Origin: Phoenix dactylifera
Taxonomy: Eukaryota; Streptophyta; Magnoliopsida; Arecales; Arecaceae
NCBI RefSeq assembly: GCF_009389715.1
Contig: NC_052401.1
Coordinates: forward strand, 1,786,843 to 1,850,842
Direction: 5' to 3'
Length of the DNA stretch: 64,000 nucleotides
A program made the position numbers and the translations under genes. The notes beneath the pieces are model-generated. The model had not been told where the DNA came from and did no database searches. It worked only from the letters and a program-made list of their open reading frames with translations. Positions 2,480-64,000 of the stretch are shown piece by piece; the first letter of the stretch is position 1; every line of letters begins with the position of its first letter.

Positions 2480-2865
2480 TTTTCATTTCTTTGCAACAAA
2501 CATGCCCTCACTGGACTACAAATCCTAACTCTCAAATTGAAAATCTCACCATTAAAAGGATGCCTTATTCCAAAATCCAGTTAATCCAATCTTATTTTCT
2601 CCTACAACAATCACCTAGCAGGCAACAGTCCAATTAGTCTTATATTTTTGTCAAAAGTGTTCTCCTAAATCTATACCAGTTTAAGAAAAAGGCATGATTT
2701 TATTAATACTAAAATTTTCACTCATACTATTCCTAACAATTTTATTTCAGCTCTCCAATTCAGATCTGGTTCCTTTCATGTTGAATCCTTTTTCCATAAA
2801 ATCCCAAAATATTGCATATTTTCTAGGAGATGTGCTTTTATTATGAGGACCCGTGCATGCATACA

Positions 2866-3226
2866 TTTAGTCCCACATCGGTTGTGCACCGGGTAGATCT
2901 TGAATACTTATACAAGGCCAATAAACGCAAAAAACACCTTTCAGCTGGCTTCTTTCGGTGAGGTCCCAAGTTATTACAGATAGTATCAGAGCAAACCAGG
3001 CCCATAGCCTATGTGGACTAACAGACGCTGCAGTATAGGTCTATTTGGGTTGACTATAAGCTGGTCATGGTATTTGTGATTGGATTTGAATAGATTTCGA
3101 CCCTTAGCCTAGTGCGAATGCTAGGGCTTAAACAGGGTAGTGGGTGAGTATTGGTGCGGGCGTATGTTTAGTCTTACATCGATTATACACTGGGTAGATC
3201 TTAGGTACCTATATAGGGACAATGAA
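2866..3226 (+). mobile_element. Decayed TRIM/LTR-type element
   Basis: Two diverged direct copies of a roughly 60-base segment lie 301 bases apart (about 2866-2925 and 3167-3226). Both carry TTTAGTCYYACATCGRTTRT followed by GGGTAGATCTT and a TATA-like stretch. After the first copy, at about 2981, is TAGTATCAGAGCA, a near match to the plant methionine-tRNA primer-binding motif. The TAGTCCCACATCGG motif is widespread in plant LTR-type elements. Ends and target duplication are not clear, so the limits are approximate. Confidence 0.5.
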
Positions 3227-3686
3227 CCCACATTTATTTTCATGTCAAAATGCCGTGCAATTTTAGTAATGCAACTATTACACATACCAACATTTTCAGT
3301 CCTGTTAACAATACCTTGTGTGTTGTTCATTTACTTGTACCATTATAAAACGCCCTATTTAACAAAAGGACTAACAACAACCTTTGTTTCCCATTCTTGT
3401 CAATAAGATATATGTTGCTTATTAATCAATATTGGATCATAATTAGAATTTGAGTTCTGCTGGAGGAAAAGTCTATATTAACCTCAATTTCTTGTTTCCC
3501 AGTATTTACAAATAAAATTCCCTGCACTACCAACAAGTTTCCACTCACGCTAAAATAAAACAGACAGTCAATCCCTTTCCTTCTCAAGGGAGGAAACTTT
3601 TGAGGGAGGAAAAACAAAATAATTTAAACTTTGCTCAAGATAAACATCATAAATCCAGCAAAAAACATAAAAGAAAAGAAGGGTAC

Positions 3687-6124: not shown

Positions 6125-7651
6125 TAGATAGAATTAATAGTACATTTTAGAGTATTCATGTTACTTGCTTTCCTTTTTGATAATTATTTTAATTTATGCA
6201 TGGTTATGGTTATGTGAACCTAAGTCCAAATTCAAATGAATTTAAAAAACAAGTACTAATTAAGGCATACCTATAGACTAAAAAAAATATATGTAGTATC
6301 CCTAGTATAATTTTATATTTAGCAAAATTACAACTAAACTTTTATAGTTAAATACTATTTTTAAATAAAAATTAATTTAAAATATATAAAATAGTAAAAA
6401 CAGAAATTATTGTGATGCATAGATAATTTAGAAATTCTTTTGAAATAATTCAGCCACCTTTTGTGTTGCTATATAAAATATCACTTTTTATATGTTTAGT
6501 AACTTAAAAATATTAATTAAACTAATTATTTTTATATATTAGGACATGTTTTTAAGGACAAAATGCATAGTATTTTAATTATTTTATAATAACCACATAT
6601 ATTAAGTAAAATTAACTCATAAAATCATTAACATGTTTAGAAATATATTTTTTATTTTTTTAAAAATATAGATCCACTTCGTGTAATTTATGAGATGGTT
6701 TACCACATGTGGAACCTTAAGATCATATTTCGAAAATTTCTAACTCTTAAAATAACTATAACAATATAAAAATTGGAAAAAAAAAGAACTGGTACTGTAT
6801 TAGTAAGCTTTCGTATGGGTTATCATACATAGTAACAAGATCATGAATCTTATTCAAAGCACCAGCTAGTTGTAGAAGATAAAGTTAATCGACGGCAAGA
6901 GCAGACAGATAATGGTAAGTAAATCATCAGAACAGCAATTTTGAGATGAGTGGATGATAAATGCAATACCCAGGAAAACATCTGATAAGTCTGAATTTGC
7001 AGACGAAAATCACTTTTTGTAATGCCCAAAATTAATACCATAATGCCTCTTTTTGCAGGTACCCGAAAAAATCTATGGCATCAATCACAATGTCCTCGAG
7101 GTTTCTTATAGGTACTAGTTTGATTCCCATAAGAGAAGATTACTCAGTTTATCCTCCTTTCTTTTGACTAGTACAGGTAATATCGTTTCGAAGAGAATAT
7201 GATCCGCTAAAGCTTTGAATACAAGAATCAAATGGTCACGACAAGAAAAATGCAGAAGTTAGATGTTGCTACATATGAATTTCTTGGTAAACCTGCAACA
7301 ATCTTAGAATGTTAGTTTGGAACGCAATAGTGGAGCATGCTTTTAGATGGTACCAACTCATACACAAGAGAATTGCAACTTGAATGAGATCAAAATAAAA
7401 GTCTATAATTGATCGTTGCTGGAGTAAGCCCTTATTACAAAATGGCACCACAAATGTAACTATTTCTGGACCTTTCTAAACCGTTTCTTCTTTGCAGTAA
7501 GTATGTCTGAACTTGCATGTTTAACAATGATGCAAGGCTAAAAAATTGAAAAAATGCAAAGATTGCTAACTAGCAGATCCTAGATTGTCGAAATATGCAT
7601 ATACAAAAGGACAGGAGTGTAACAAAACAAAATGAAGGCTGTAGGAAGAAT

Positions 7652-13600: not shown

Positions 13601-16600
13601 AGAAGGCACATCGACAATATGGGCAGTACCAAGCACCCTCTGGAAGAGCCTGAAAGAAGACAAGCATTCCTTTAGGGAACTTACCATGGATGCGCACAGT
13701 ATACTCAAAAGGAGTAATAAAAGAAGTTCATTGACAGACCATGCTGGTGCCATATAATGCAGATGTTAGAAATAATATTCATCAAATTTAATATTGGAAT
13801 AAGGGAAAAGAGTAGTAAAAGACTATTCTTAAAAATGACTAGAAAAATGAAATAACCAAATAAAATAAATAAAAAACATCTTTTCAGTAAAACAGTTTTT
13901 CAGAAGCACAAAAAAAATGATAAGCAAATAATCCTTTCTAGCAAAACTATATCTCAGAAGCACCATTATGATCCATCAAGGCCGTAATCACAATAATTTT
14001 TTTAGAAAAAGGAAAATTCAAAGCAAAAGTTACATTCTGCTCATAATATCACAACAAGCATGTTAACAAGAGTTCCCTATAGGAGTTTTGTAAGATGTCC
14101 GAGAATTTGATCTATACCACCTCACCTAAGTTACAAATATACATGGATGACAATCAAAATTTGGTCTATCTTTTGATTCTGGTCATTTTTTTATGTGCAT
14201 GCACCTGATTTTTGAGCCTTTTTTCTTTTTTCTTTTTTTTTTTTTTTGTCAAGCAGACAAGTCTATTTACTTTTAAAATGTAAAAGAGGTGGGACTATAT
14301 AGGAGCAACTGGTTCATGAGCTACTACCTTAAGCATCACACAGTCCTGATGGAAAGTCGAAGGGCAATTATCGCAGCATATCAAGTGCCCACCATCTGCA
14401 CAAACCCCACACGTGTCATCACTGGGATCTGAACCAACAGTTCCTACTGTCTGAAAACCAACTTTATTAAGTTTCTTTTCCTTCTCCCAAGCTTCCAGGA
14501 GGCATTGTGTTAATGTTTTTCCTGACATTAGGAAAATGTTATCCCAAGGCAGGTAAAGATCGCTGCCAGCATGAGCTTTGAATTTTGACAATGGCTCAAC
14601 CTCCTTGCAACTGTCGCACCAAATTCCTCCTCTAGTCACCAAACCATTAGGAATGTTACCCATGCTGTTCTTTGATATGTAAACAACCTTTTCGTTTTCT
14701 GTTAGAATGCCAAAATCAATTAGCCAAGATAGTATAGTAAGTTTTGTTTGTGATGAGATCTCTTCATGATGATTTTCTTTTCCATTCCTCCTAACAATTA
14801 GACTGCATCCACGACTCCGCTTTTTCTTTTGTTTTGTATTTAAATTTCCACCACTAGCTGGCTTCCTTTTAGCCACCTCAATCTCCTTTTGAGAAGCAGA
14901 GGATTTTTCCGATCCTGGATTCTTTGCCTTGCCACCTTTTCTAGAATCATGACTCTCCACCTGTTTGGGTGTTCTGAATTTTTGGCTGTCTGATTTCTTA
15001 CTGTTAGTTTGCTTCAACTGCATATTATCTGATTCAGGACTTCTTCCTTCCTTGTCGTTGAGTCCGGAGAAATTAGTTATTAGCTCTTCCTGATTCTTCA
15101 GCACTGTGTTGGCTGCAAACTTGGACAAATCTAAAAAGGTATCATCAACCCCCATTTCTGCATACAATTCATCATCTACACAAACATGTTTGCCGTTTAT
15201 ACGCACAGATCTCCTGACTCCAAGTACATCACCAGATTGATGCATATCACTGACATCAGTTTGACGTGAAAGGATTGCAATGCTGCAGTCCAGTTTTTGA
15301 GCTTCAGAACCCGAGCTTTTGCCTGTCATACTAAAATTCATCTTCTCATCTATTACACTCTCTGAAACTAATGACTTTCCCTTGTTCTTTCTAGGAGCTG
15401 TGTTAACAACAGATTTAGATGAAGCCAAGTTGTTTTCTACCATCAATTCTGCATGCACTTCTGAATCCACTGGAACATTTTTCTTATTTGCACGCCTGGA
15501 CCTCCTAACTCCAACTATTTGGCTATCTTTCTCCACACAGGTTGTGCTGCTATGTGTATTTCTTGTAACCCCCATACTGCTGGATTTTGACTTTCTGACT
15601 TCATTGTTCGATGATTGATCTATCATGCATACTTCAGGCATGTTATCAAGCACAATTTTTGCTTGTGAAGTTCTAAATTTCTGCTCCTCCTTGCCCCTCA
15701 CTGCATTTACTGCATTTCCGCTGACTCTGCATGTAGACAAATATGAGAAGTTGCCGTCAGTTTCTGCATTATCCACTTTACTTTCTACAGGAACATGTCT
15801 CCCGCTAATTTGCATAGATTTCCTTACTTCAAGCAATTCTCCATCTTGGCGTGTGCCATTTGTACAGGGTCTATCATTTTCTATAGTCAAACTGCAGCTA
15901 CCAGCCATCTTATTGGATTCATTGTCCAAGCATCTATCTTCGACATGTAATTTTGTTTTCTCGTCTACCATGCTCGATGAAACCACCTGGTTCGCTCCTT
16001 CAGATACCACCGTACCTGGCATGTTTGATGAAGCCTTGCTAATTTTATAGACAGAATACTGTTTTAACTGGGGAGGCTTTTTGCTTGTCATTTCAGGCTC
16101 CACATTCCCTCTGATTGTAGAATTCTTTGTCCTGATGCTTTCGCCCTTCTTGCCACTGCCCTCAGCTGCAACATGACTCTGCATGGTTACGTTGCTGGAG
16201 GGGAGCCCTGCAATGGAATTGCCATCAGATGTTGTTCCACTTTGCAGGCCTACATTGCTCGTCATTCCAGGCTCCACATTCTCTCTGATTGTAGAATTCT
16301 TTGTCTTGATGCTTTTCCCCTTCTTACCACCGCCCTCATATGCAACTCCACTTTGCAGGGGTACATTGCTAGCAGGGATCTCTGCAATGGAGTTGCCGGG
16401 AGCTGCTGCTCCGCTTTGCAGGCCTACATTGCTCGCAGAGAGCCCTCCAACAAAGGTACCATCAAGCCCCCTGTTCTCCCGGAATTGGGATGCACTCCAT
16501 GCCTTCTCCTTATACTTTGAAGTACCATGTAGAAAGGTCTCGAATGCTTTGGGAAGGGAATAATAAGCAATACCATTGGGAGAGATGTAAATGTAGTCAC

Positions 16601-17057
16601 CAAAGCCAGGCCGAAATATCACCCTCCATCCAAAGAATTGCAAAAGGTTCACTAGGTATGGGGGCGGCAGTCCTGATTTGGAGCCAAACATACTGTTGTC
16701 TCCTACCGGTGGTATCTCGGAAGCATTCTTACCGACTGATTGCCCTTGTTTCGGTCTGGTGGGTCTGCTTGCTGAACTACTGCTCTTCCTGGCCTTCTTC
16801 TCTGGCACCCAATCCGGATCCTGCATTTCGCTGGAGGTCCTTTTACCTTTCTGACTTTCTGATGCCGATGATGCTTCATCTGTTGAATTAGATAAAGTGT
16901 CCATTTTGCTGACAGCATTAAGATTGGGAGTCCCCTCTACTGTGTTCTGGTTGAAAGCATTAGAAGCCACCGGAAATGCAGAAGAGTTGCCCAATCCAAC
17001 AGTGTTGTTTCCCAAGTTTAGGACCAAGAACGAGCCATTCAAAGTCGAATTCTCCAT
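7652..17057 (-). CDS. PHD-finger and GNAT-domain chromatin protein (IDM1-like), 1348 aa, eight exons
   Basis: Exons on the minus strand: 17057-14328, 13649-13523, 13403-13321, 12499-12258, 11632-11546, 9799-9700, 8433-8235, 8130-7652. All introns are GT-AG, phases agree, and the total is 4047 bases. The first exon (910 codons) has a charged, low-complexity N-terminus with a PDWVPEKK segment near residue 80, a DYIYISPNG segment near 155, internal repeats (about 210-325 and 411-640), and a Tify/TPL-associated (TDBD-like) region near 770-860. A C4HC3 PHD finger (about 880-925, starting CGVC) spans the exon 1/2 junction. A second Cys/His cluster follows (CKQC, YHQQC, FCGKKC). Exons 4-7 form a GNAT fold with the acetyl-CoA loop QKQGMC near 1110. 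The family includes Arabidopsis IDM1/ROS4, a nuclear histone H3 acetyltransferase that opposes DNA methylation. Whether this member does the same is inference; the family has several paralogues. No frameshift or stop. Confidence 0.93.
14240..14260. repeat. Poly-T tract in intron 1 of the PHD/GNAT gene
   Basis: Long T-rich run just downstream (in gene sense) of the first coding exon. On the gene's own strand it reads as poly-A. No feature beyond low complexity. Confidence 0.6.
16083..16430 (-). repeat. In-frame tandem duplication inside the PHD/GNAT gene (174-base period)
   Basis: GGCTCCACATTCYCTCTGAT (plus-strand reading) occurs near 16096 and again 174 bases on, and the similarity extends over the whole unit. 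At protein level two 58-residue units (about residues 210-267 and 268-325) both carry SNVGLQSG, a KKGKS/KKGES motif, RTKNSTIR or KTKNSTIR, and NVEPxMTS. The period is exactly 58 codons, so the reading frame is kept. Confidence 0.85.
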
Positions 17058-17870
17058 GGGTGGGGAGCCATTAGAGCAAAACCCTAGGCCAAGACAAACT
17101 AATCCTGCAAAACCACCGATTTCCGGCTTTCAATGGCACCAACACAATTCAAGAACCAAATAGATCATCCAAAAAACACGCATGCACACACCCACATAAA
17201 GAAAGGCCAGCGCCTTTTTGCCGCAAATTAATAGAAATCCTAGAAGTAATAAACCTCCAAACAAATCCAGAAAGAAGATATATTCCAATCCTGTTGAAAC
17301 CTTCAATCCAATAGATGAAAAAGTGGTTTTTGTTTCTCTAATTTGATCGGAAAAAGCACCAAAACCCAAAAAAAAGGATCCGGATTTCTCCTAGAAAACT
17401 AACGAGCAGTACCAAGTTTTCACATGCAATCAACCAATCACATTAATGCAATGCACCATCAAAAAGACAACACCGGAAGAAAGAAACAACCAAAGACGAG
17501 CAATCTCCGTCTATAAACCTCCAATCGGTTACTCCTAAAAAAAAGAATACTCCAATCAGTTCAAAACTCCGAAAAACTTCAACCTAACCCAATAAAAAAA
17601 AACTAGAAAAAAAGAACGAGGAAAAAACCGATGATTATAATCCGATGTAATTAAAATGGCTTACTTGAAACGAGACGATTTCAGCTCCTCCAAACCAACC
17701 CATCCTCGAATCAAAAGAGAGAAAAAGCATTAGGGTTTTTCTCTCCCGTTTCCTTGGAGGAGGAGGAGGAGGAGGAGGAGACGAGGAAGAGACCGATATT
17801 GGCTCGGGCTCCGTCTCCGTTTTCTTACTTTCTTTGATTTGTTTTTTTGTTTCTCTAAAGGTAAAAGTAG
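17058..17870 (-). promoter_or_regulatory. 5' leader and promoter region of the PHD/GNAT gene
   Basis: The stretch upstream of the ATG at 17057 contains a (GAG)n run (about 17757-17780, plus-strand reading) and the plant leader motif TTAGGGTTTTT near 17732. This suggests that transcription starts around 17.7-17.9 kb. A TATA box is not obvious. Whether the leader is split by an intron cannot be told from sequence alone. Confidence 0.45.
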
Positions 17871-20356
17871 AGAGAGCTATCGTTCGTTATTTATAGAAAT
17901 TTTTTCCATCACGGTCACTTTGGGATGGTATCGCAAATTAATCTTTTGTATCAGATTCCATCAAACCCTTCGCTGCATGCAGCTAATGAGCCTCTTATGT
18001 TATTTCTTTAACGTCCCCTCCTTTCCCCTGCCTCGCGGGTAAGCGTAGCGGATATCTGCTTCCCCTGATGGACACTAGGATTTCTGGTGTAAAACAGGAG
18101 ACATCGTAGGAGGAGGGGGCTTGTGCTGGATTAGATGGCGGCACGTGCGAAGGCGGTGCCTGTCAGTTAGGCTGGACGTGGTGTAAGGTGTTTGGTAGGT
18201 TAAGGCGACTAGCGGATCGGCTTACGTGGGAAGGAGGAGAATGTTGGGAGATCGCATTGGGAGCGGACCCAACTCGATTCTGGTCACGTGCGGTGGGAAT
18301 AAGAAGGGTTGCTTAAATAGTAGTTTGGGCACGAAGCAGTCGATTTAATGTTGCTGGTTGTTTACAGGGAGCGCAGCTCAGCTGTCTCCCCGCGGTTTCA
18401 CAGCTTTATGAACTAATATGTCAAATTATTATTAGCAAGCAAGGTGGAGCCCATGGTTGATGCTGGCTCAGGCCATATATATTCGCATTCTACTTTGGGA
18501 TGGTCATCTAGAATGTTGCATGAAACGCAAATTTATCGGTTGATATGGCATAGTTAAATCAGCAAGCATTTTAGGACTGGGAGGCCATGTTTGATGAGGA
18601 CATCCTGGACATGTAGCTCACCTTCTATTCTAGTATTGCCATCTAAGACATTCTTTTAGACACAAATTCGTAGATTGATATGTTCAAATATGTTTTGCCA
18701 GTTTTCTTGGTTGATATGCTGCAATTTCATTGGCAAGTTTTTTTTTTTTTGGTAAGAATCATTGGCTATTGATGTGGCTAAAATATATCAACCAATGAGG
18801 AGGTGACATGTGGCGAAAAAAAAAAAAAGGATGTGGTACTATTTAAATTCGAACTTTTGGGCCCCAATTAAACAAAGCTTAAATCTCTTCCCGATGAAAC
18901 AAAGACTGTAGAGCATGAATTCATTAAAAGAAAGAGCCTTTGTTTAATTATTTTTTCCTTAGCTTTCTTGTTCTACCAAAGTTCTCTCTTATTTAAGCAT
19001 TGGAGAGCCTGAATGGAGCTAATCTGAGGAGTCTTTTCTTTTTTTTTTTGGTGTGCAAGACAGGGATCGTTTGATCGGGTTTTGGACAAAAGCAGCCATG
19101 TTCGATGAGGACATGTACTTCACCTGCTATTTCAGGATTGCCATCGAAAACAATCTGGAACACAACTTTACAAATCGATATGTTTTATCATTAGGCATTT
19201 TGGCACTTGCAAACCAGTTAGTCAGCTAGAAGTATTTTTTTCAACTAGTTTTCATATGGCAACTCTGATTGTCGTACAGCTTAATGAGCTGTGTCACATT
19301 TTTCATCCGTAAATGCGGGGAGTTTGGAACCTATGGCAGGTTAAGGTCAGTAACTTCTACATTTCAAGTTTAGCATAGCCATCTGACATGGTCAAGTGGC
19401 ATAACAAGCCAGTCAAGCTTTAACATTGTTATCCAGTAAGCAGTATTCTTTGCCACTATTTCCTGTCAAAAAGGAGGCAGCTCTGACTCTCCATACCGTG
19501 AGAGTAACATGAATTAGCAACACGAATCAAGAGTAGACCCATATTCTTATGGTCTGAGAGATGAGCAGTTGTATCCTCTATAGTCTCTTAATCTCTCCCT
19601 TTGTATGTGTTACATAGGTTGCAAGATAGCAAGGGTGATCCAGAACAGAGCATTTCTAAGTTGGCATCCATTACCTCACAACTAGGAGGAGCGATAGTTT
19701 AATAGAATCAAGTTGGGCAGACCAGTAATTCGTAACATACCGCTGTTGCATATATATTGATGCGATAACAAACAGTAGTGACTGGTCAGCTGCTCCTACT
19801 TGGAAGGATAGCATGCAAGAAAATACATCTCAACAATAGATAACCCTGACAAGCAAACCTCTCATTGCTTTTAACAAGCTTTCAGCCTTTAAACTCACTG
19901 GTCAGCAGTTCTGCTCACTCTCATCACAGCATAATAAATAAATAAATAAAGAAATAAATAAAAAGTTTGTACTTTAACAATACCAAGCACAAGCAGCTAA
20001 GATTCCGCAACTCCAGTTGCAATTTGTTCTGCCGGCCACTTAGTCATTTGATATAAGATGACAACTGCAGTTCATCGATCTGCATTTAACAGAACACATG
20101 CTGTCTGCGGAGCTTCTGCTCCATTAAACTGAGCACGGGCATAAATATGAACCCACGAACAGAAATCTTATACATGAAGTAAAATCAGGAGGGGTGAAAG
20201 TCCCTCACATTTATTCGAGTATGGGTCCATGAAAAATTCATGAAGTGGATACACCTCGGCTCGACATCCAGGGACTTTATGCAATGCAGGGTAACGGACT
20301 GGTTTCCACTTCTTACAGATAGCACAGCACCAGCAGCAGCCAAAATGGAACAGTTC
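17871..20356. other. Intergenic with a diverged dispersed repeat
   Basis: No gene seen. Related segments recur at about 18589-18690 and 19098-19190 (see separate entry). Poly-T near 18740 and 19033 and poly-A near 18820 are present. The final few hundred bases form the 3' flank of the peroxiredoxin locus. Confidence 0.5.
18589..19190. repeat. Pair of diverged direct repeats, about 100 bases each, 509 bases apart
   Basis: The first copy (about 18589-18690) reads CCATGTTTGATGAGGACAT, then TATTGCCATCTAAGACA, then GATTGATATGTT. The second (about 19098-19190) reads CCATGTTCGATGAGGACAT, GATTGCCATCGAAAACA and ATCGATATGTT in the same order. A weaker third similarity lies near 18500-18555. Origin unknown. 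Confidence 0.6.
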
Positions 20357-23300
20357 CTATATAGCTGTGAAATATTCCTTGCTGAGTTTAGGGTCTGGCT
20401 TCATAGACCTCTCCCCAGGCTTCCATCCTGCAGGGCAGACCTCATCTGGGTTCTCTTGGACATATTGCAATGCCTGAAAAGCACAGTAAAGAAGTTTGAA
20501 TTAATCTGGGCAGGTAGAGTTTATCTAGCCTACAAAATTTACAGGGTTAATAATCCAAGCAACAGGAGAGGTATCTGCAATCTAAATTGGCAGCCACAAA
20601 AAAGATATCACAAATTCTAGATTTATTTGATAGTTCTTGAGTGGGTTACTGCTGCAACAAACTGTATTTATTAAAATTTATTGGTGAAATATTAAGCAAA
20701 ATGTATGATTTGGTAGCTTTCAGGAAACAGCTCATCCCCCAGGCAAAAAATGGATTACGGGATGCAAATTGGAGTGACCGACCAAATAATGAAACACATC
20801 TTGTTATAAAGCAGAACGAGAGCTCTGAACGTTCTTCTCCAATTTTACCTGAAGCGTCCCCATGGTTTCATCAACACTCCGTCCACTTGCAAGGTTACTA
20901 ATCAAGTAATTGGTAATCACAAGCATCTTGGCTTGACAATCAAGTTCATGTAAAGCTACTGGGATTTAGAATCTGACCAGTGTTGAAACAGAAATCACCA
21001 TGTTTTGGACCTCTTCGTTCACTTCTGGGCACATTAGGTTTAACCTAAGCCAGCACTACCTTACTGGAAGACTAATTTCACCTGGATTCTGCTAGAATGT
21101 CTTGGGCCAGGCTGACCAAAATGTACTGCAGAACTAAAAAACTTAAACCATGATAATTTAACTTCCAAACAACACTTTATAGTTCATTTCGTCACAAGAA
21201 AGATGTCACAAATTAAAAGTTCTCAAGCAATCATTTCTTGGCAAGGGAAAAGGAATTGTTTTATTCTGTGGATGATGCATTCATGGTGTTGTTTAGCATC
21301 ATAACAAGTATCACTAATGACAAAACCAGAAGGAAAAAATCAACAGTGGAGGTCTTAAGTCATTCATAAAGCTGATACAGCATGTGGTGCATGGCTGCTT
21401 TGGCCAATTCTTCATCCTATTTGATATTATGAAGGACATTGACAGATTCTAGCAGCAAGTTGTCTGGTTGCATGCTCCATGTTAGCCCTTTAAGTGCAGA
21501 ATAACCTTTTATCCAGAGTCAATGACTTTACAACTAGGTTTACTACTGTTGCGACTGTCATGATCCCCCTGCGCAGGCATGTCTAGCTCCAGCCATAAGC
21601 TTGGAGTGCAGACTTGCATGTGCAGAAATGCATAGGCACACACAAATGCATCCATAATGGTATTTAGACTTAGCTCCAAAGAATTATAATTTACTGACCA
21701 ATACCTTCCAATATCTTCAGAGTAATTCCCATATCGAGAAAGACCAGAGTAGCAACTGCTAGTAACTCAATGCCTACACAGTACAATACCATAAAAATAT
21801 ACAATACCACACAGTTCTGAATTACTCATTTCAATTTTTTTGAATAATTTTGAGTATCTTTTGCATAATGATTAGACTAGCTTGCGACCAAAATTTTCAC
21901 CTATGCAGTAAGCCCATATTCTAAGTCAGCTACAGCCAATTTCTTGAAACGTGCATGATATAAAATTGAAACAGGTTTTTTGCATAAGCTTTTTTTTAAC
22001 AATAAATTTTGACAAGAAACCAAAGAAAGCTTTGATGATATAAAAATTAGTGAAAACACATGCACAAAGAAGCCTCCCAGGACCAACCAATGAAACAAAT
22101 ATCAGTCATGGCCATAGTTTCAATTTTCTTATTTTTCCAGTAATTTCCAATATCCAAAATCATCAAATATGCCATCTGTATTGTACTTTTTTCCCTTTTA
22201 CCATAATTGTTTCTTGAGATATTTTAATATCCCTTTAGGTCATTATTGTTCTTTTAACAAATAAACACCCTTGGTCAGCATATAGATGACCAACAACCAG
22301 CCATAGATTGAAAAAAGAAAAAAACAAATGGCAAATAAGAAGGTAAACGGGAGGTCAACAATATTTTCCCCATGATTATGAAGAAAGCATTTCTCAGTTT
22401 AAATTGTTGGGTATCGCTATTGAAAACCCACTGGAGATCTCCCTACCATGAGCTGTTAGATGGTCCTAGGCTTTACGGCCACTTAAATCAAAATATGCTG
22501 ATACATTGCACACGAGCATTCTCAACTCTGCTGAATGCTCTTATTTTGTTGGATTAGATTATCAGGATATTTCTAAGACAAAGGGCAAAAAGATCGTAAT
22601 CTTCTCGTAGAGGACAACAGCTACAAGCAATGCATTATCCAATTTAGTGGAATGTGCAGCATGTATCGCAACTTCTAATTAATACCATCGCCACTGTAAT
22701 CATAATACAGGGAGAACCTACTATCAAAGCCGAATTTTCCAGAGAACAAACAAAAGAGAGGAAGGAATACCAAAATCGAATGCAATTGTGTGTACCTTGC
22801 TGAACTCCTGATCAAAGACTGCTTCAGCTTCAAAATCTAGCGCCAGATTTCCAGCCAGTGGCAGCTCATTCTGAAAAAATAATCAACTCACTCAGCAAAT
22901 GAAGATTAAAAGTCCCGAACCCAAAAAAGCACTCAAGCGAAGTAAAACAAGAAAAAAAAACAACGATAACCCAAAGAGTATTGCCGCTGCATTAGAAAAA
23001 CCACGAGAAACAATCAATTACTGGAAAAAACAAAAAATCCAAAACCCTGATAAGAGTGACGGGATCGAGAATAGAATAACCTAGATTGACCAGGAAATCC
23101 GGCAACAGGAACGAAACGCCATCAAATCATAATAAGAATAGAAATTCCTGGTGTCTGGGAGAACAACCCCGCCGACGGCATTCGCGACGAAGCTTCTTCG
23201 GGAGGATTTGGGAGCGGAGACAAACGGAGAGGGAGCGAGGCTGGAAGTCCTTCCGCAGGCCGTGGAAGCTCTTCGGGATGGCTAGGGTTTTGGAAAGACG

Positions 23301-23402
23301 CCCCGGCGCGGAAGGCAAAGAAGCCATGGGCGCCAAAGGTTTGGAGGGGAAGACCCTAGGGTTCGAGTTCGAGGAGACGATAGAAGGAACGGAGCGAGCC
23401 AT
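20357..23402 (-). pseudogene. BAS1: Plastid 2-Cys peroxiredoxin (BAS1) locus lacking its catalytic exons
   Basis: Family recognition is firm. The last exon (20473-20357) encodes [16 protein letters not shown] and ends [10 protein letters not shown], including the resolving Cys. A 49-base exon (20897-20849) gives NLASGRSVDETMGTLQ. Exon 2 (22870-22796) gives NELPLAGN then DFEAEAVFDQEF. Exon 1 (23402-23168) is a Ser/Arg-rich plastid transit peptide. The real enzymes are chloroplast thiol peroxidases whose peroxidatic Cys sits in FYPLDFTFVCP. I read the 1.9 kb between 22795 and 20898 on the minus strand and found neither that exon nor the GLGDLKYPL and GLFIID exons. Exon 1 also shifts frame near 23220: the conserved SSRRSFVANA is read only in another frame. 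Joining exon 2 to the 49-base exon gives an immediate TAA; joining exon 2 to the last exon would stay in frame. No peroxidase activity is possible. A transcribed remnant cannot be excluded. Confidence 0.85.
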
Positions 23403-24060
23403 GGCGACGGAGCGCTCCCTTTCTCTCTCCTTCGCGCTGCCTCTGTCACCGGGAGCGTGGATAAGGGAGAAGGGGAGGGGGGTTGAACCGGCGCCACATG
23501 ATCTCGAGTTGAACCCGACCGGACCGGACCGACCGGGGATCTAGTTGGAGTGGTCGCCCGTAGGCAAGTGTGGTGAAGCGTCCATTGTACTGCTGGAACC
23601 GGCTAGCGGAGAGGGTGTGGCGGAAGGGACTCAAGGGGTCCATTTTTTTTGCTTTCGTAGAACATCAGATTTTAATAGAATTGTGAATTAAATGGCTTCG
23701 TACGTGATCGCTCACTTGAGGGACTCTATAAATTAAAAAAAATGTTGCCCATGGTATTACAAGATTTGCTATATATTTTGATTTTAGGTGTACTCATTTT
23801 AGTTGTGTATGAGGGATCCCTATAGAAAAAAAAAAAAAAAAAATTCTAGAGTGTTATTGGACAATTTGGACCCCATGCGGCGGAGAGAGACGGAGCGACT
23901 AACCTGTACCCGCGGCGCATCTGAACCCTGTCGTCTCCGGCACTACCATATCCCCAAGGAATACCCACCGAACCAATCGCGAAAGGTGCGAGAGGTATCG
24001 GCATCACAGGTGCGGTTCTTCTGACACCCCCTTTTCTTTTTCAATTTTTTCCGTGGTTCT
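23403..24060. other. GC-rich 5' flank of the peroxiredoxin locus, then AT-rich spacer
   Basis: The first 250 bases are GC-rich, as expected for the promoter and leader of the minus-strand peroxiredoxin locus. A poly-A run lies at about 23826-23842. No further gene seen. Confidence 0.45.
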
Positions 24061-53749: not shown

Positions 53750-54135
53750 AAACTATTTGAAGACGAGTAGTCGCTTGGTACCTTCCTCTCTACCAAGAAG
53801 GGCCTTGGTTCAAATTCTATCGACATTGCTTTGAGATCTTATTATTGCAAACCTAATCTAACTAGAGCCCTCATGATGTGATGCACATACTTAGCTTGGA
53901 GGCTGATGAAAACTATTTACCTTCCGCATAGTGGAAGGGTTTGTAGGGTCATGCATCAAGGTAGGCAAAGAGGAGGGCACCGGTTCAAATTCGATCGAGA
54001 TGCTTCGAGATCTTCTTATTATTGCGAACCTAGCCTAATTTAGAGTGGATCATGATGCAATACACGTAATTAGCTTGGAGGCTCATGAAAATCATTTACC
54101 TTCTGCATATGGCCAGGTTTGTAGGGTCATGCAGC
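53750..54135 (+). repeat. Tandemly duplicated SINE-like unit, 176-base period
   Basis: Two copies (about 53770-53957 and 53958-54133) share GGTTCAAATTCKATCGA (starting at 53807 and 53983), TTCGAGATCTT or TTTGAGATCTT, TTATTATTGCRAACCTA, AGCTTGGAGGCTSATGAAAA, CATTTACCTTCYGCATA and TTTGTAGGGTCATGCA. GGTTCAAATTC fits a pol III B-box, and TAGTCGCTTGGTA before it fits an A-box in the first copy. The tRNA-like head appears only in full in copy one. Confidence 0.65.
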
Positions 54136-55447
54136 TAAGTAGGCAAGGAAGGCTTCATGTCCATCTTATTAGCTACAAAGTTCATATATTTTGAATTGGG
54201 TCCATCACAACATTTGCAGTTTAACTAATTGATTAACGTGCAGATGCCCGATTCCATTTTAAAGACCAGGAATTTATGGTCCGTGGGCTAGTGATGTGCA
54301 TGGGTTCGCATCACTCTTTAAGGATTCCATCATGGCCCGTTGATAAGCATCCCGTTCTCGAGCTGACACCGTTGATGCCATCTCCGTGCTCTCCCACCGC
54401 TGCGATTCCCGTCTCCTCCAACTCCGCCGCGCGCTCCGCCGCTCGCTCCGCCGCTCGCCCGACTATTCGACTCTCTTTCGGAGAAAACCAACACTCGAGG
54501 TTTTCTTTCCGCCTTCCCACTCTTTTGCCCGAAATTGCAAGGAAGCCAAAGGAAATTTGAAATCGCTCTTTCTTATCCGAACGGTCCGAAACCAACTTGC
54601 TGATTTCTTGAATTTTTTTCTTTAAAAAATCGCGATCGAATTTTGAGTTCGATTTGCAAAATTAGCGGTATTTATTCCAGGGCGAATAATTCCTCAAACC
54701 CTAATAATATTAGCTCGATTGCGATCAACTTACGAATTTTGGGCGCATTGGCATTTGATTAGACAGCAAGACTTATTAGCATAATGGAGGAGAAAGGAGA
54801 AGCACGGAAGCTGGAATTCTGATGCCACTTGTTGTAATGGTTGATTTTGTTCTTTCTTGATACCGTTCGCACTTTCCTTTCTTATGTTTCTTGGTTTTTA
54901 GATTGATCTTGGAGTCGAATTGGATCTGATTATTTTTTTGAATTCCATGATCTGACGCTGAAATTAATTAGCAAGAAAACCCTAAACCCTAGAAATGCTT
55001 ATCCTATTCCGTCGCCCACTTCACAAATTTGCTTCCCCTGCTTCCAGATCAATTAGTGTTTTGTTCTTTCAATATATAAATAGATAAATCAGTGTTCAGA
55101 AATTTTATCAATGAGGTTTTTTTTTCCACTTTGGTTCTGACTCTGCTTTCTAAATCTGTTTCTTCTTCTGGTAAATAGAAACAACTCTTGCAGTCATGCT
55201 TAAGGGTTTGGTATCATCTTGATTAAGCGAATGCTGCTTATTGAATGCAAAAAAACACTGACATATTGGGACTTTGTTTGTTGAGTTCTTTATAGTCGAT
55301 TTCCTGGCATTCTTGACTTCCTCGAGGGCTATGTGAATCCTTCTTTGTCATTCTTTCTTGATGTTATTGATTTTGTCCTGAAAACTCTTGTTGCCCAGGT
55401 GCTCCAGCTTATTTAGGACGGACTTTACTCCTAGGTGTACAGGGTCA
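54136..55447 (+). promoter_or_regulatory. Upstream region and probable leader of the LDAH gene
   Basis: A GC-rich block (54380-54480) with repeated CGCCGCTCGCTC is open in three frames, the longest 94 codons, but matches no family I know. AACCCTAAACCCTAG near 54978 (telo-box, common in plant leaders) and CCCTAATAATATTAG near 54697 suggest transcription starts between 54.3 and 55.0 kb. Leader introns are likely but cannot be placed. Confidence 0.35.
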
Positions 55448-58400
55448 ATGGAGAGGGTAGCATTATCATCATCTTTTGGGAGAAAGCAAGCAATGAACCG
55501 CATCTGCATCGTCTCCAGGTGCTGACCCAATTTCCGCTGTTCTCAAAATGGTTAATGACAAAGCATTTTTTTTATATTATCGATGCATTAATTTATGGCT
55601 TTATGAGTTCACATGCTTTGGTGGGTGTATACTAAAACAAGAATTAACACAGTACACTTTATTTATTGTAGCTCCTCAACTGAGCTGCTCGAGATGCATT
55701 CTGAAGATCCCTCATTGCATATTCTTTTTATCCCTGGGAATCCAGGTCCAACATCAATCATTTCTTTTCCCTCGAAATTGTTATATTCTCATTAAATTGT
55801 TAGTGTTCTTTTGTAAATACTGCAACAATGTTTCAGTTTTTCCTTCTTATCATTGGTCACGGAATGATCTAGCATGAGAATTTTGGGATCTGAATGCTCA
55901 TCGCAGGTATCGCGTCATATTACAAAGACTTTGCTGAAGCATTGTATGAACTGCTTGAAGGGCAGGCATCTATAACAGGCAAGAAAATTGGACTTTGGCT
56001 ACTCAAAGTTCTGTATGATCCTGATGGTTTGCTAATTGTTTTCATCTACTGTCCACCTTCTTGATTCAGCAATTGGGCACATTTCCCATTCTAGAAAGGT
56101 ATAATGCAACTATTAAAATTAGTACGACAACAATCCTAATATTTTGACAGCAGTGCATAGGAATTACTAATGGGCCTTAATATTAGAATAATTGTGTGAA
56201 TCATGAGTCTTCAATAACTCACATAGTGGTCAAATAGAACCTTGAATATAACTGAATCCATTCTAAAGATACCATAATGTTAATTATATAGCCCCGAGAC
56301 TTTCAATAGTTAACCACTACATAGCTAGAAAGTTAGAGATTTGAAGGATATCTGGTCTTTCGATAAAGTATTATTTAGGCCTGTTAACCCAATAGTTTAC
56401 AAATTTATTAGGCGCAAACTTTTCCACAGATAAAAGTGACATGCCTAATTTATTTTCTGCTAGGATTGGGAGCATGGAAGGATGTTTTCATTGCAAGAAC
56501 AAATCAATCATAAGGTTTGCTGATGCTTTTATTTTGTTCAGTAACAAAGATTTTCATTATCTCGCATCTTGGTCATGGAGGAATGACTATTAAACTGTTA
56601 AACCCATTGTGTTGAGCATCCATATCCTTATATTATGATATTGTGTAATTTTGTGATCTCACTCCTAGTCAATTGCAGAATCCTAGTGGCGTGGTCATTT
56701 TTATCCTGAAAAAATTGTGCTCCTTGTATCACTATAAGTTCAAAGCTTCAGCATTTTCTGTTTCCGTTGCAGGAAGCAACTAATTTTGTCTAACTTTTGC
56801 ATCAGTAGCTCCATTAGTTACTTGAGTTAGTAATTCCTTGTCTTCTTATACTAGGAGCTATATGAAGCGTAATTTTCTTTCTTTTTGTTCTTCTTGTGTA
56901 ACTTCTCTCTTGTCTTTTTCCCCTTCAAGTATTAGTTTTATTGTTTCCAATTTTAATGTCCATCAATCTCGCCTTTGCAGGTGGATTTTATCAAACAAGA
57001 GCACCAGAATAGTGAACTTCCAATAATACTGGTAGTATCTTCAACTGTAATTGATGGTCAGATTTCTAATTTTAGTTTCAGTGGCTGTTTGTAATTATGT
57101 GCTCAAAGAATGATGTCTGACAATGTTGTTTCTATACTTTAAATATATCTGCAATGGAAAAGCTAAATATTATTTTTTTATAATTTATAAAGAGGGTTAC
57201 ACCTGAATACTTCAGCTTATTAACCAAATGTAATGTGAAATGGATGCATGACAATAAATATAAAATATTTGATATGTTGACAGATAAGTAATCTTAATGC
57301 GGTGCCAAAATTAGATTTTCTACTAATATATTACTATATAGCTCATATTGATAGATTTCCTATTCCTGTTTATGTCAAGTTTACCATAGATGACTTGTAT
57401 TCCTGTTTTGTTGAAGGTTGGACATTCTATTGGTTCATATATAAGCCTGGAAATCTTTAAGAGGCTTCCGCAGCAGGTGGCACTTCTGGTTCTATCTTGT
57501 TTATTTGACACTGTCTCTAAAACTCAAGATTAATTCAGTACGTATTTTCTTGGAGTTACAGGTGACGTGTGTTATCGGACTTTATCCATTTTTATCTTTG
57601 AACAGGAATTCTAGAAAGCAGTCCATGATTGGGATGCTTGCAGGGTATAGTTTTCACTGATTGCTCTCAGTTACTGTTATCTTTGTTGTAGGTTGTTACA
57701 CAGCAACTTTTCTTTTGCATTAACATAATGTTTTCTGTTTTTTATTTTAATCAGTCTGTACTCCTATAACTTTAAAACCTTACAATTTTCTGGTAGTTGA
57801 TTGGGTCTGAATCCTCAGTAGGCGGGTGACAGTTTTTGATGTGTATCAACTTCTCTGGAAAAAGAAGGGATTTAAGCGGAGGGGCTTGGAGCTTTATTGG
57901 GTTACAAGTTTGTAAATTTTTATGTCCTTGTAACGCTTTTAACCTGTCTTCACTAACGAACTTCATGACTTCCAAATGAGTCTAAAATGTTTGTGGTGGT
58001 TTATCTGGTAGCTATAAGCATGGGTCTTCTTCTCCATGGTGCTTAAGTGTTCCATAATATGCCCAGGTTGTGTTCTCTAAGCATAATTGAAGAGGAAAAG
58101 TAACTCTGCAGTTAACCTTTTCGTTTGCATTTTTCTTGCATTCTTTTCTCTCTGGTCTCTTATGTACAGGCCTGGGCATCTGCTTCCTCTGGAAATTCAA
58201 TATATTCTTAGAGCTACTTCAAAATGGATAGTGTTGTTGCTAGTGAAAACTTCATGTGGTGGATTCTACAAATCTCTTGAAGATATAAAACTGTTTCATT
58301 TCTTTCATTGATTCTTTTTCCCCCGAGAAAGGGACTTAATTTTCTTGAAGGCTGATTTCTGAAATAGTAGTATTTTCTGAAACTGTCGTAGTGGAGTTTG

Positions 58401-61400
58401 TATCACATTTGCATATTCAGAGGCAAAATAAGAGTTTCAGTTTGCAGTCCTATGAGAGGTTTTATTGGTTGTTTTTGAGCATGAGCCACTTTATTAAGTT
58501 TTTCATCCTCCTTGACCAACTTGTAAACAAAAGAGGAACTGTTGTCAGATATAATACGCCACAGAGGAGATAATTACTTAAAACATTTAATCCTTGATGC
58601 TTGAAGTCTAAAATTAGTCAAATAGTGAAGAATAAATTTTGATGCTGAACTCTCTTATATGCAGTATTCTTTATGCATTATTTTGTTTGTTTCTTGCTGT
58701 CTGTGCTTGTTAGAGGACACGTATATTCCTGAATCATAGGTTGCTGAAGTCAGATTCTATTTAAAAGAACAGCATTTTGCATCAAGTTCCATCATCATCA
58801 AGGTACAAAGATGCAAGATCCATTTCCAGGTGTTTCAGTATTCTGGTCAACCTTCTTTAGGAAGTGGGAGGCAAATTCATGAGTAGTTTAGGCTACTTGA
58901 CACTTAAGCAGCCAAAGACGATTACTTAACCTTACTTCCGAATCTCCTTTTATATACAACCAATGTACCCTTGGCAGAATTTTGCAGAATCATGTAAACA
59001 ATGACTATATTGACAGATGCATAGTTTATAAATTAGCTTCAAGTATTGGAAAACCTCTTGATAGAAAATTATAATGTACTGACTACAAGGTTTAGCATTA
59101 TAAACACTGCCTTGTCTTCTAAATTTCAGGTCCTCCATTCTAAGTGCTGCAATAAGTTCTTTTACAGGATTTTTGGGGTCATTTCCAACCAGGGTTACAA
59201 GTGCTATTGTGAGAAGATCACTTGGGCAGTCATGGTCTGCTACAGCAGTTGATGTTACTTGCAGTCACCTTGTACAGGTTACATTCTTTGTCCAGTATTT
59301 CCTTTTTTTTTAGTTTGGTTGGGGGGGGGGGGACCTCTAGAAGAAAAATCATGTTCTTCTACTTCTTTCTTTTTCCCTCTTGAAGTGGACCTGGATTTGT
59401 TATAAGTTGTCTCTTCTTAATTACTTTTTTCCTTCGCCTTTTTGAACTGGGCTGTTCTAAAGTGTCCTTCTTTATCCTTTTGAAGCCTACATATATTTCC
59501 AGTTGAAATCATAACTGTCAAATATTTGCTATACTATCGATATACTTCCTAGGGAAGAAGTTTGGGTAATTAATTCAATTAAGTAATTCCAGAACCAAGA
59601 GATGTATGAGTAATGTATAAAGAAACATCTTGAGAAGCTTACGAGAAATCATCAGAAGTGCATGGTTAGAAGGTGTTGCATGTGCTAAAAACTGAGAAAC
59701 AAATGTCAATGTTCTGTAAATTGCTCCTGTATTCTCTTAAAAGAAGTCACATCTTTCCTGAATCATGGGCATCTTTTATTTCTTATTTCTCTTTTCTTTC
59801 TTTGCATGTGCACCAATATGGCAGCAGTGTAGGTTAATAATTATTTTCATTTCACCATAAGATTTTTATTACTACACGAACTACATCTGGATTCCAATGG
59901 AGAAGTTGTTTTCCATTGAACTAGATGCTGGAACATGCAATATTTTTACCTTGAATCAAGCTTGTAATCAAGGTTTGCCATCCCGGTAGTGGACCCAATA
60001 GGTACCATGTTGTTACAGCATCGGTGTGCCTGGCACATGGGTCGGTTCAACGTACCGAAACTCGGTACGACCCTATACCAAGTCTCAGATCGATGCCTGT
60101 ATGGTACAGTATGCCCGGTATAAGACGGTATGGTGAACCTTACCTGTAATTCTAAATTGTTCCTTTCTTGGAGAAAAACTTTTAGGATTTGGATTTATTC
60201 ATGCAAATACTGGCATTATTTTTATTTTCCTTCCCAATTGCTTCAAGGATTCAATTTCATGGCCACATTGACGTTTGTGTTATGTTTAGCTGATATGATA
60301 GTCTATAAACTACTTGTACTCCTATAATGCAACCTTATCACCAAAAATAAGTGAAGTCCTTGATGCTAAGCATACTGACTTGCACAAATCTTTGCATTCT
60401 ATGCAGCATCCTTTACACTATGTTGTAATAGTAGGAATTCAAAATAAAAGATTCTGACTTCTTTCATAAATTATGCAGTACCATACAATGCGCAATGTCC
60501 TCTTCATGGCTATGACAGAGTTCAAAAAGGTAATACAACAAGCTCAAAGGACTAAGTTATCTATTCTGAGTTCTGACTAATGTATAGATGTTTCATTGTA
60601 GGTTCATTTGTACTTTAAAATTAAACCAAGCTAGATGTCTCTTTAACAGAAGATGATCTTTGTGTGCTTCTTAGGGGAGGCCTTTCTGTCCGCTTTCTCT
60701 TTTATCATCACATAAAATTTATAAATGAACTTCTTTAGTATGAATTTTCATAACTCACAATTGTCATATGATATGGCATGTGCAAGGAAGAGCTGCTAGC
60801 TAACTGGCCCAAAGAGTATGGTTGCATGAAGGTGGGTGGAGGTCATCCACTTCAATGCATTTTTTTGTGTGCAAGTAACACATGCAGCTCTATTACAAAC
60901 TTGCCACTTCCATGAGGTGACCCTAAAAATCTATGAGATCATTTTGAATAAGTCAGATATAACAATGTTTATATCTTTGTTGCAAATTTGACCATAGTTG
61001 TTTGGAGTTGATTAGGATTACGCTTGGTCAACATTTAATATGCTTGATTATGTATCATGCAAATACCTAGTACCGGAGCTCACCCGCTTTTGAACTCACT
61101 TCCAGCCCTTACATAGTTCAATGAAACCAAGGTTCAAAAACATGGTTTTTGTCAGGTCTGTTGAGTTTCACTTTCGCTGATATTGGCAGTCTCAGCAATT
61201 TCTGCCCAATTTTTGAAGTCTCGGCCAAAGGAAAAAGAAAAAAAAGAAAAAAAGAGAAATATAAAACAAGGCAGGTAAACATGTGTTATATAACTTTGGG
61301 GCATTTGGTATCATTCATATATTTTGATTTTATGGTCTTGGTGTCGGGCTGAAAGCCTGAATCTATGAAAAATTAAAATACTTTAGAAACAATTGAAAAT

Positions 61401-63525
61401 GTCAAAGAACTATATTTACATTCAATTGTTTTATAACAACCTAACCATTAAATGCCTGACAACGTAAATATTCATATATATTAATATTTTGATTACCATT
61501 ATATCAAATAGCAATATATATTTTATAAACTAAAAAGTATGTAAGTTCCTATAAAATTTAAGCTCAGATCTTCCTTAGAGCTTAAATCTTACAAATCTAC
61601 CATCTTATCGGTTATGTCAACTCATAGAACCCTTTTCTCTGTTTGCCCCTTAAATATCATAAACACCAAAAGAAGTCTTTTGTACCCAGGAAAGACTGCT
61701 TTTCTCTTATTTCCTGCAAACCAAACACTCCATCATCCTTTTCATTTTACTCAAAAAGGTGAAAAACGATTGAGAAATTAACACTATTTAGCAAAGTATG
61801 CTTAAGGAAATAAAGAAATGAAATAAAATGACACTTAGTACCAATATAATGAATAAGTGCAGCATACATGTTCGATTTCGGTTAGTTTCACCTGAAATTG
61901 ACTGAAACAGAGTTTGGGGTTAATTTCAGTTTGGTTCCAGCCAAAAACCAATCCATTTTAACCAGATCTTCAAACCTTAAGTAAGACCAAACAAATCCTA
62001 GGAGATATTGTGGCTTACAAATTTCTAATTGAATCATAGAAAGCACAATAAGATTGGGAAACCTCATGAACATAGTGATATTATTAAACTCTTGCACATT
62101 TTTGTAGCTCTGTTTCTATTTGTCCATTGTGCCATATGAATTTAGTTAGTGAAGAGTTTCAACTTTTCCATCTCATTTCTCCTTTTCTTTTTCCGATTTC
62201 TTTTGCTGAATTGAATATGTAGTTTATCAACTCAAGAAATCTCTTATTTCAGGTTTATTTGTAGAACACTAAGCGTCAGCTCCAGGATCAAATATATTTT
62301 ATTTGTAACTATATTCTTCTTATAGAATATTATCTATTTGCTGCAAAGATTCCTGATGTCTTGTTTTGTCATGCTAACTACGTTCTTCAACTTTTAGCTT
62401 GCAGAAGAGCCAGACTGGGAATTCATGAAAAGAAAACAAAACCAAATTACCCTTTTGTTTGGCATTGATGACCACTGGGGTCCATTATCACTCTTTGAAG
62501 AGGTGAATATTGTGTGCATTTTTTGTTTTACCAGAAAGAATCATGAACATGAAAAGTTGGAATTCTGGGCATTACCTGCTAGATTTAATTATTCAACTGT
62601 GCAGTGTAAATTTCTGCTTCTCAAAGTTAGCTGGTTCAACTAAAGTTATATGGGTGAATTTATATCCTCCCAACATCTCTCTTCCATTGTTCAATATCTG
62701 TGCGTGTTGATATAATGCAATTGTTTCCACTAAGGATAATCTAATTTTTTACAATTGATGTAATTGCATTTAGTACAGTCAACAGTTAACTCCGTGTTGA
62801 CTGTTGACTGGCAGAATGGACTCACTTGTATATCCATTGCACTTAAAAATTTGGCTGAGTTAATCACCTTTAATGGGTTGAAATTTGGACTTGATCTTGT
62901 GGCCTGGCTTGACCATACTGGTTGTCTTTTTAACTAGGGCTCAGAAATTAATTAAATTAATCTAATATGTCAAAGTAGATAAAATAGAATACAGCAGAAG
63001 CAGTGAGATTACTGTTCTATTCTTTCAACTTGAGATAACAATGTCATAAATAACTAAATGAGTGAAACAAACTGCATATGGGTACCGGCATCCGCTGCCA
63101 ACATGCTAGTGACTGGTAATCTGCCCTCTTTACATGAATTACCCCTTTCAAAGACAACCTTCTATGTGCTTGTAGATAGAATGTGGTCAAAGTTCAAACA
63201 CTAGATATCATGCCTTTGACCTCCTGAGAGCAAAGGGTGGAGATCATGAAAATTGGGATTAATTAATCGTTTCTCCTTAAGCCTTGTTTTTGGGCAGGCG
63301 GGTAAGATTCTTCTTAAGGGTTTTACTGAAGCATCCCAGATGCTGGTTGTTTAAAACAATTAAAGATTCATGGTTGGTGGATTGCAGGTTTCAAGGCAGG
63401 CGCCAGGTATTGCTTTGTCTATCGAAAGAGAGGGCCATACACATGCCTATTGCTGCAGTGAGGCTGGATCAGCATGGGTTGCCCGCTATGTAGCAGACTT
63501 GGTCAAAAATCAAATTTCAAATTAA
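55448..63525 (+). CDS. LDAH: Lipid-droplet-associated hydrolase (LDAH/DUF2305) alpha/beta hydrolase, 310 aa, 12 exons
   Basis: Exons: 55448-55518, 55672-55745, 55907-55978, 56070-56098, 56464-56514, 56981-57031, 57417-57476, 57562-57644, 59130-59277, 60479-60529, 62398-62502, 63388-63525. They are in phase, 933 bases in total. Eleven junctions were read as follows: ten GT-AG, and intron 3 GC-AG (ACAG/GCAAGA at 55979). FIPGNPG (residues 43-49) is the oxyanion-hole loop, GHSIG (118-122, Ser120) the nucleophile elbow, an Asp in GIDDHWG (254/255) the likely acid, and the His in REGHTHAYC (282 or 284) the base. Length fits the family. LDAH proteins bind lipid droplets; the animal enzyme is linked to sterol ester turnover, and the plant role is unclear. 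The start is the only ATG that gives an in-phase first exon, but the first 23 residues are the least certain part. Confidence 0.92.
59323..59334. repeat. Poly-G run in LDAH intron 9
   Basis: About 12 consecutive G after TTGGTT. No other feature. Confidence 0.8.
59985..60135. mobile_element. GGTAC-rich dispersed repeat in LDAH intron 9
   Basis: A GC-rich block in an AT-rich intron with repeated GGTACC, CGGTACGA, CGTACCGA, TGGTACAGT and CCGGTATAAG motifs in both orientations. Blocks of this kind are common in monocot introns and look like a decayed inverted-repeat element. The class cannot be assigned. Confidence 0.4.
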
Positions 63526-64000
63526 AATAAGGCAGGTTAGGTTCTTTTCCTTATAGTTCTTTTAAGTTTGGCTTTATTTTCTGCTACTGCAACTAGCATC
63601 ATGATAGTAAGTGCCGCAATAGTTTGCTGAACAATGCTGCAATGCTACTTTCTCTGCCTTTCTAATGTTTCCGGTGAGGCTGTTCATGACTTGAAAGTGG
63701 CATAATTCCTGGTAACTGATTCAGACATTAGTAGCCTGTGCTTTGGAAAACAACAGTACTGCTGATGATGGAACTCTTCATCTGAATCTTTCAACTGAAA
63801 CAGATTATTTGGACTGATCATAGAACCAAATCTTTAGGTGGAATATATAATCCTCACAGTCGATGGGAGTGGTGATAGATTCTGAAGTCTGCTACTTCTT
63901 CCAAAGGACAAACTGAAGCTTGCAAGATAGTAAGGTTAGACAGCCAAAGGATAAATTAAATCTTTTGGCTTATCACTACACTTTTCTTAGAAAGGTGGCT
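63526..64000. other. 3' flank of the LDAH gene
   Basis: Presumed 3' untranslated region and flank running to the end of the window. No further gene seen. Confidence 0.4.

Follow-up and report, generated by a model that had tools for sequence, protein, structure and literature searches.

How does a chloroplast 2-Cys peroxiredoxin gene (BAS1) come to keep both of its ends while lacking the exons that carry its catalytic centre? The question is raised by a locus on the minus strand (positions 23402-20357) of the window, i.e., the whole 64,000-nucleotide stretch of Phoenix dactylifera DNA analysed here (C10:1786843-1850842), which has exons 1, 2 and 7 and a shortened exon 6. Exons 3-5 and half of exon 6 are gone, and the peroxidatic Cys with them. 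A sequence-only reading had described a 2-Cys peroxiredoxin locus without its catalytic centre, and this identification held. The joined peptides of exon 2, the exon 6 stump and exon 7 led to plant BAS1 (top PDB match 5zte, Arabidopsis, E 5e-35), and the 3' peptide matched Pfam family 1-cysPrx_C above cut-off, with no Pfam family matched by the exon 1 or the exon 2 peptide alone. Using tblastn with the Arabidopsis BAS1 protein, residues 1-53 (E 0.025), 70-95, 192-228 and 228-266 were found in the window, with no significant match for residues ~96-191. A frameshift-tolerant search for residues 96-191 in 20970-22790 scored 32, which is within the range of 8 shuffles (26-32) and below the opposite strand (35), so that no remnant of the middle exons was seen there, and diverged middle exons within this 1.9 kb were rejected as an explanation. 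Together, the tblastn gap and this null result indicate that the missing middle is real in this sequence.

Searching the genome (773,078,369 bases, 2391 contigs) revealed an intact BAS1 on another contig, C14 (locus L014), with seven exons, GT and AG intron ends, and 813 coding nt for 270 aa without internal stop (the end of its exon 1 was picked by eye). A genome-wide protein search with BAS1 gave 16 matches (17 of 17 candidates scored): exons 2 and 7 were matched on both C14 and C10, the contig of the window, and BAS1-grade matches (76-88%) to residues 90-191 came from C14 only, which suggests that the assembly contains one intact BAS1. Weaker protein matches to the missing-exon region were on C100 (43%), C3 (42%), C16 (31%) and C1 (32%), and the C100 and C3 loci look 1-Cys peroxiredoxin-like. 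A Pfam search of the genome for the AhpC-TSA/thioredoxin-fold domain (PF00578) returned 14 matches, none in the window, most of them other peroxiredoxins or loci left aside (L011, on C10 itself, L012 and L013 among the latter) and a weak one on C14 being the intact BAS1 itself. Six of the 14 carried no locus handle, and of these the C14 match was taken further. Judging by their motifs, L009 and L010 are probably PrxQ, L002 and L004 1-Cys, and L001 PrxII-like; L006 gave weak matches only.

Aligned with the intact C14 gene, with which it shares the order and phase of its kept introns, the C10 locus is organized as follows:

23177..23402, minus strand: exon 1 (transit peptide); 187 of 219 aligned sites shared with its C14 counterpart; 3' end picked by eye as the first of two in-phase GT sites.
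22871..23176, minus strand: intron 1; 85 of 296 aligned sites differ from C14.
22796..22870, minus strand: exon 2; 66 of 75 sites identical to C14; splice sites kept.
20917..22795, minus strand: intron 2, retained 5' part; collinear by blastn with L014 from 5126 upward; 397 of 1847 aligned sites differ.
20903..20916, minus strand: deletion junction; by blastn, L014 5126 and 3093 meet at window 20917/20902.
20849..20902, minus strand: exon 6 stump, the final 54 of 114 nt; 47 of 54 sites shared with C14; donor kept, acceptor deleted.
20474..20848, minus strand: intron 6; 81 of 367 aligned sites differ from C14.
20357..20473, minus strand: exon 7, with the stop codon and the resolving Cys (EVCPAGW); 113 of 117 sites shared with C14; the 3' peptide matches 1-cysPrx_C.

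The locus has thus kept introns 1 and 6 as well as the 5' part of intron 2, all alignable with C14, which led us to reject a processed (retro-) pseudogene. As for the terminal exons, earlier called well preserved, this description suits exon 7, and applies less well to exons 2 and 1.

The alignment to an intact BAS1 of the same genome, which the sequence-only reading had proposed, yielded a single missing block of 2032 bases (~2.03 kb; L014 3094-5125), comprising the rest of intron 2, exons 3-5 with their introns, and the first 60 of the 114 nt of exon 6, or 348 of 813 coding nt. On either side of this single gap the alignment resumes, L014 5126 and upstream corresponding to window 20917 and upstream, and L014 3093 and downstream to window 20902 and downstream. 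The exons are indeed absent, as that reading had it; the 1.9 kb in which they had been thought to belong is retained intron 2. The extent of exon 6 also had to be revised. A full exon 6 remnant at 20959-20849, matched ungapped by tblastn to residues 192-228 (E 5e-4), was rejected since its 5' half is intron 2 by comparison with C14: the end of the exon is there, and the sequence immediately upstream of SNLASGRSVDETM, although aligned to exon 6 by tblastn, is mostly intron 2.

In C14 the left end of the deleted block has GTGACT and the right end GTGATT, the latter being also what the window has. Because ~12-14 nt at the breakpoint fit neither flank well, a GTGAYT microhomology is possible rather than proven at this junction, and a short filler is equally possible. 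Neither a repeat nor a transposon was found at the junction: the window compared with itself by blastn gave 13 pairs, none inside 20.3-23.5 kb, and among the short repeats of 20300-23500 (5 direct families and 5 inverted pairs) none covers 20903-20917. Rfam and tRNA searches returned 0 matches each, and the sole interspersed repeat seen in the gene pair sits in intron 2 of the C14 copy. We infer that the deletion may have arisen by illegitimate recombination or end joining, perhaps at the GTGAYT microhomology.

The C10 copy carries further lesions, assigned to it from the comparison with C14 (the substitutions being placed without outgroup DNA). The transit peptide is frameshifted, as had been noticed from the sequence: by alignment and translation, exon 1 has 6 nt added in frame and a net gain of 1 nt relative to C14, and joining exons 1-2-7 from the normal start and the normal exon 1 end leads to a stop just past exon 1, i.e., the transit peptide is no longer in frame with the mature protein. 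In addition, APDF has become ALDF in exon 2 (Pro to Leu), and GRSVDETMR has become GRSVDETMG (Arg to Gly) in the exon 6 stump. Both the Pro of APDF and the Arg after GRSVDETM are kept in C14 and in 5zte, and are presumably conserved more widely.

Broadly speaking, the features shared with intact BAS1 (C14 and Arabidopsis 5zte) are exons 1, 2 and 7, the end of exon 6, and the resolving Cys in EVCPAGW followed by the C-terminal tail (exon 7, 20473-20357). What sets the C10 copy apart is the loss of exons 3-5, half of exon 6, the in-frame transit peptide, and the peroxidatic Cys, since the FVCPT motif is carried by exon 3 in C14 and this exon is absent here. Since the remnant is without the peroxidatic Cys and the bulk of the fold, it could not yield a peroxidase. 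Disabling lesions occur in one copy only, the C14 frame being open throughout, and this intact sister lies in a collinear duplicate block.

The collinearity extends well beyond BAS1. Between the window and C14:2083200-2173099, blastn (E up to 1e-8) gave 58 matches, of which 55 were collinear and shared one orientation; they span window 575 to 63999 (C14:2094539-2152710) in a gapped alignment whose largest gap is 53934-63555; the remaining 3 were inverted. Window 2844-3233, a likely dispersed repeat, matches C14 at two places in opposite orientation, unlike the rest of the block. Pooled intron divergence between the two BAS1 copies was 22.4% (563 of 2510 aligned sites), and Ks was 0.33 over 873 codons for the adjoining pair of 944-aa genes. 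Because collinearity and divergence are of the kind left by whole-genome duplication, the C10 and C14 loci are best read, from their sequences, as a whole-genome-duplication pair. A duplication common to all palms is described by Barrett et al. (2019, PMC6535811), and such an event would leave two collinear blocks in any palm, Phoenix included. The block pair probably stems from this palm-wide duplication, an assignment that we infer from divergence.

The adjoining gene showed features of its own. On the minus strand of the window, positions 14298-17129 are one uninterrupted reading frame of 944 aa. A Tify-binding domain in it scores over cut-off, a PHD-like match scores below cut-off, and the frame contains a tandem repeat of two 174-nt copies (83%; 16081-16435). 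Its C14 partner is retained, with a Ka/Ks of 0.51 over 873 codons, seemingly high for a kept duplicate pair.

The C10 locus is thus very probably a fractionated pseudogene, i.e., the copy of a whole-genome-duplication pair that suffered one internal deletion while its sister on C14 stayed intact. Under this scenario, whole-genome duplication would have left a BAS1 copy in each of two collinear blocks, one on C10 and one on C14, with the gene kept on C14. On C10, one deletion of ~2.03 kb, from intron 2 into exon 6, would have taken out the peroxidatic Cys along with the bulk of the thioredoxin fold, and the copy would also have been hit by the net +1 in the transit-peptide exon and by the substitutions at conserved residues, the order of these lesions being conjectural.

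The main competing explanation in terms of data quality is an assembly collapse or haplotype error, where the plant itself would have a complete second BAS1 on C10. The long-read date palm assembly consists of primary contigs and haplotigs (PMC6794320), and an alternative haplotype may lie outside the set searched. However, the intron sequence flanking the junction is 19-22% divergent from C14 on both sides, which argues against a junction chimeric with C14, BAS1-grade matches to the missing exons occur at C14 only, and the independent frameshift and changed conserved residues suggest that the C10 copy would be dead anyway. A collapse, which the sequence-only reading had offered as one option, is therefore quite improbable.

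That reading had also considered a recent internal deletion, and its deletion stands as one block with an intact sister on C14, while its recency stays conjectural. Ka/Ks between the two copies (NG86) was highest in exon 1 (0.53), followed by exon 2 (0.32), exon 7 (0.24) and the exon 6 stump (0.18). Exons 2, 6 and 7, which hold 10 amino-acid-changing differences, gave 0.24 together (bootstrap 0.10-0.61), and all four exons gave 0.37 (0.21-0.69). Assuming a functional ratio of 0.05, the C10 branch has been unconstrained for a share of ~0.32 of the time since duplication (limits 0.09-0.70), an estimate which becomes 0.37, 0.22 or zero for assumed ratios of 0.02, 0.1 or 0.2, respectively. With constraint lost for roughly a third of the branch, and very wide limits, the death of the C10 copy likely came well after the duplication.

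Exon 7 is the best conserved part of the locus. It differs from C14 at 4 of 117 sites, the corresponding figures being 81 of 367 for intron 6 (Fisher 5e-7) and 16 of 129 for exons 2 and 6 combined (Fisher 0.010, all sites); for amino-acid-changing sites alone the latter contrast is weak (binomial 0.07), and all of these tests were made after exon 7 had been singled out. Gene conversion of exon 7 from C14 was considered and rejected, as the 60 nt on either side of the exon are themselves divergent (12%, 7 of 57, at the end of intron 6; 18%, 11 of 60, at the start of the 3'UTR), so that there is no clear conversion tract, although a very short one is possible. The conservation of exon 7, combined with Ka/Ks below 1 in the retained exons, thus requires either a late loss of function or some residual constraint, and the excess conservation of exon 7 probably reflects late loss of function plus chance.

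The third option of the sequence-only reading, a transcribed remnant with a different role, would have exons 1-2-7 or 6-7 encode a short protein or peptide with the resolving-Cys tail, or act as RNA; none of the observations calls for it. Besides the strong conservation of exon 7 relative to its flanks, the splice sites of exons 2 and 7 are intact and the two can be joined in phase. Spliced from any of four GT dinucleotides in exon 1 (unscored as donors), the reading frame would stay open for 67-122 aa, and a frame of 43 aa begins at an ATG in the exon 6 stump. Yet the normal exon 1 donor leads to a premature stop, exons 2 and 6 have lost conserved residues, and the excess of exon 7 over these two exons is modest and was noticed post hoc. 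A new role is quite improbable, as is a collapse. The more specific version, with exon 7 under present selection as part of a short transcript for a resolving-Cys C-terminal peptide, made either from the stump of exon 6 or by cryptic splicing within exon 1, would be just as much of a long shot.

Fractionation by deletion has been described in other plants, and the internal exon loss is in this respect less unusual than initially proposed. In maize after tetraploidy, Woodhouse et al. (2010, PMC2893956) report 16 verified within-exon gaps of 5-178 bp, 10 of which are flanked by short direct repeats (3-24 bp). As in these maize homeologues, one of two collinear duplicates at the BAS1 loci lost coding sequence by deletion and the other is intact. 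In contrast to the maize gaps given there, the missing BAS1 block is much longer (~2.03 kb, over several exons), and where direct repeats are given for 10 of 16 gaps in maize, the C10 junction offers one doubtful 6-nt repeat. No earlier report of the C10 BAS1 locus appears in the titles and abstract openings, among the matches listed, on BAS1 pseudogenes, peroxiredoxin gene structure, and palm peroxiredoxins or pseudogenes. As a pseudogene it is ordinary of its kind and does not change the view of peroxiredoxin function; its value is as a tidy example of a redundant chloroplast antioxidant gene lost after duplication, for which the intact sister and the deletion ends are both known.

Several minor observations concern repeats and other BAS1-derived sequences. 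An interspersed repeat of ~0.45 kb lies in intron 2 of the C14 gene (L014, about 6522-6977), and holds 40 of the 45 scored genome matches (72-81% identity) of a DNA search with the C14 gene, in which 40 of 2211 first-look candidates were scored. The repeat is absent from the window copy, which suggests that it is likely a mobile-element insertion in C14 after the duplication. Elsewhere in the window, two adjoining direct copies of ~180 nt (53796-54149, 80% identity) were seen by self-blastn and not in the tandem-repeat finder output. Finally, BAS1 3' fragments comprising exons 6-7 only were detected at L042 (G000 C564:65596-65727) and L046 (C627:106216-106311), with exon 7 split across two frames. 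They are about 77-82% identical to the C14 exons, with no match in the introns, and over 3.1 kb the two loci share 98% identity; they represent an older BAS1 3' fragment, perhaps present as two haplotigs.
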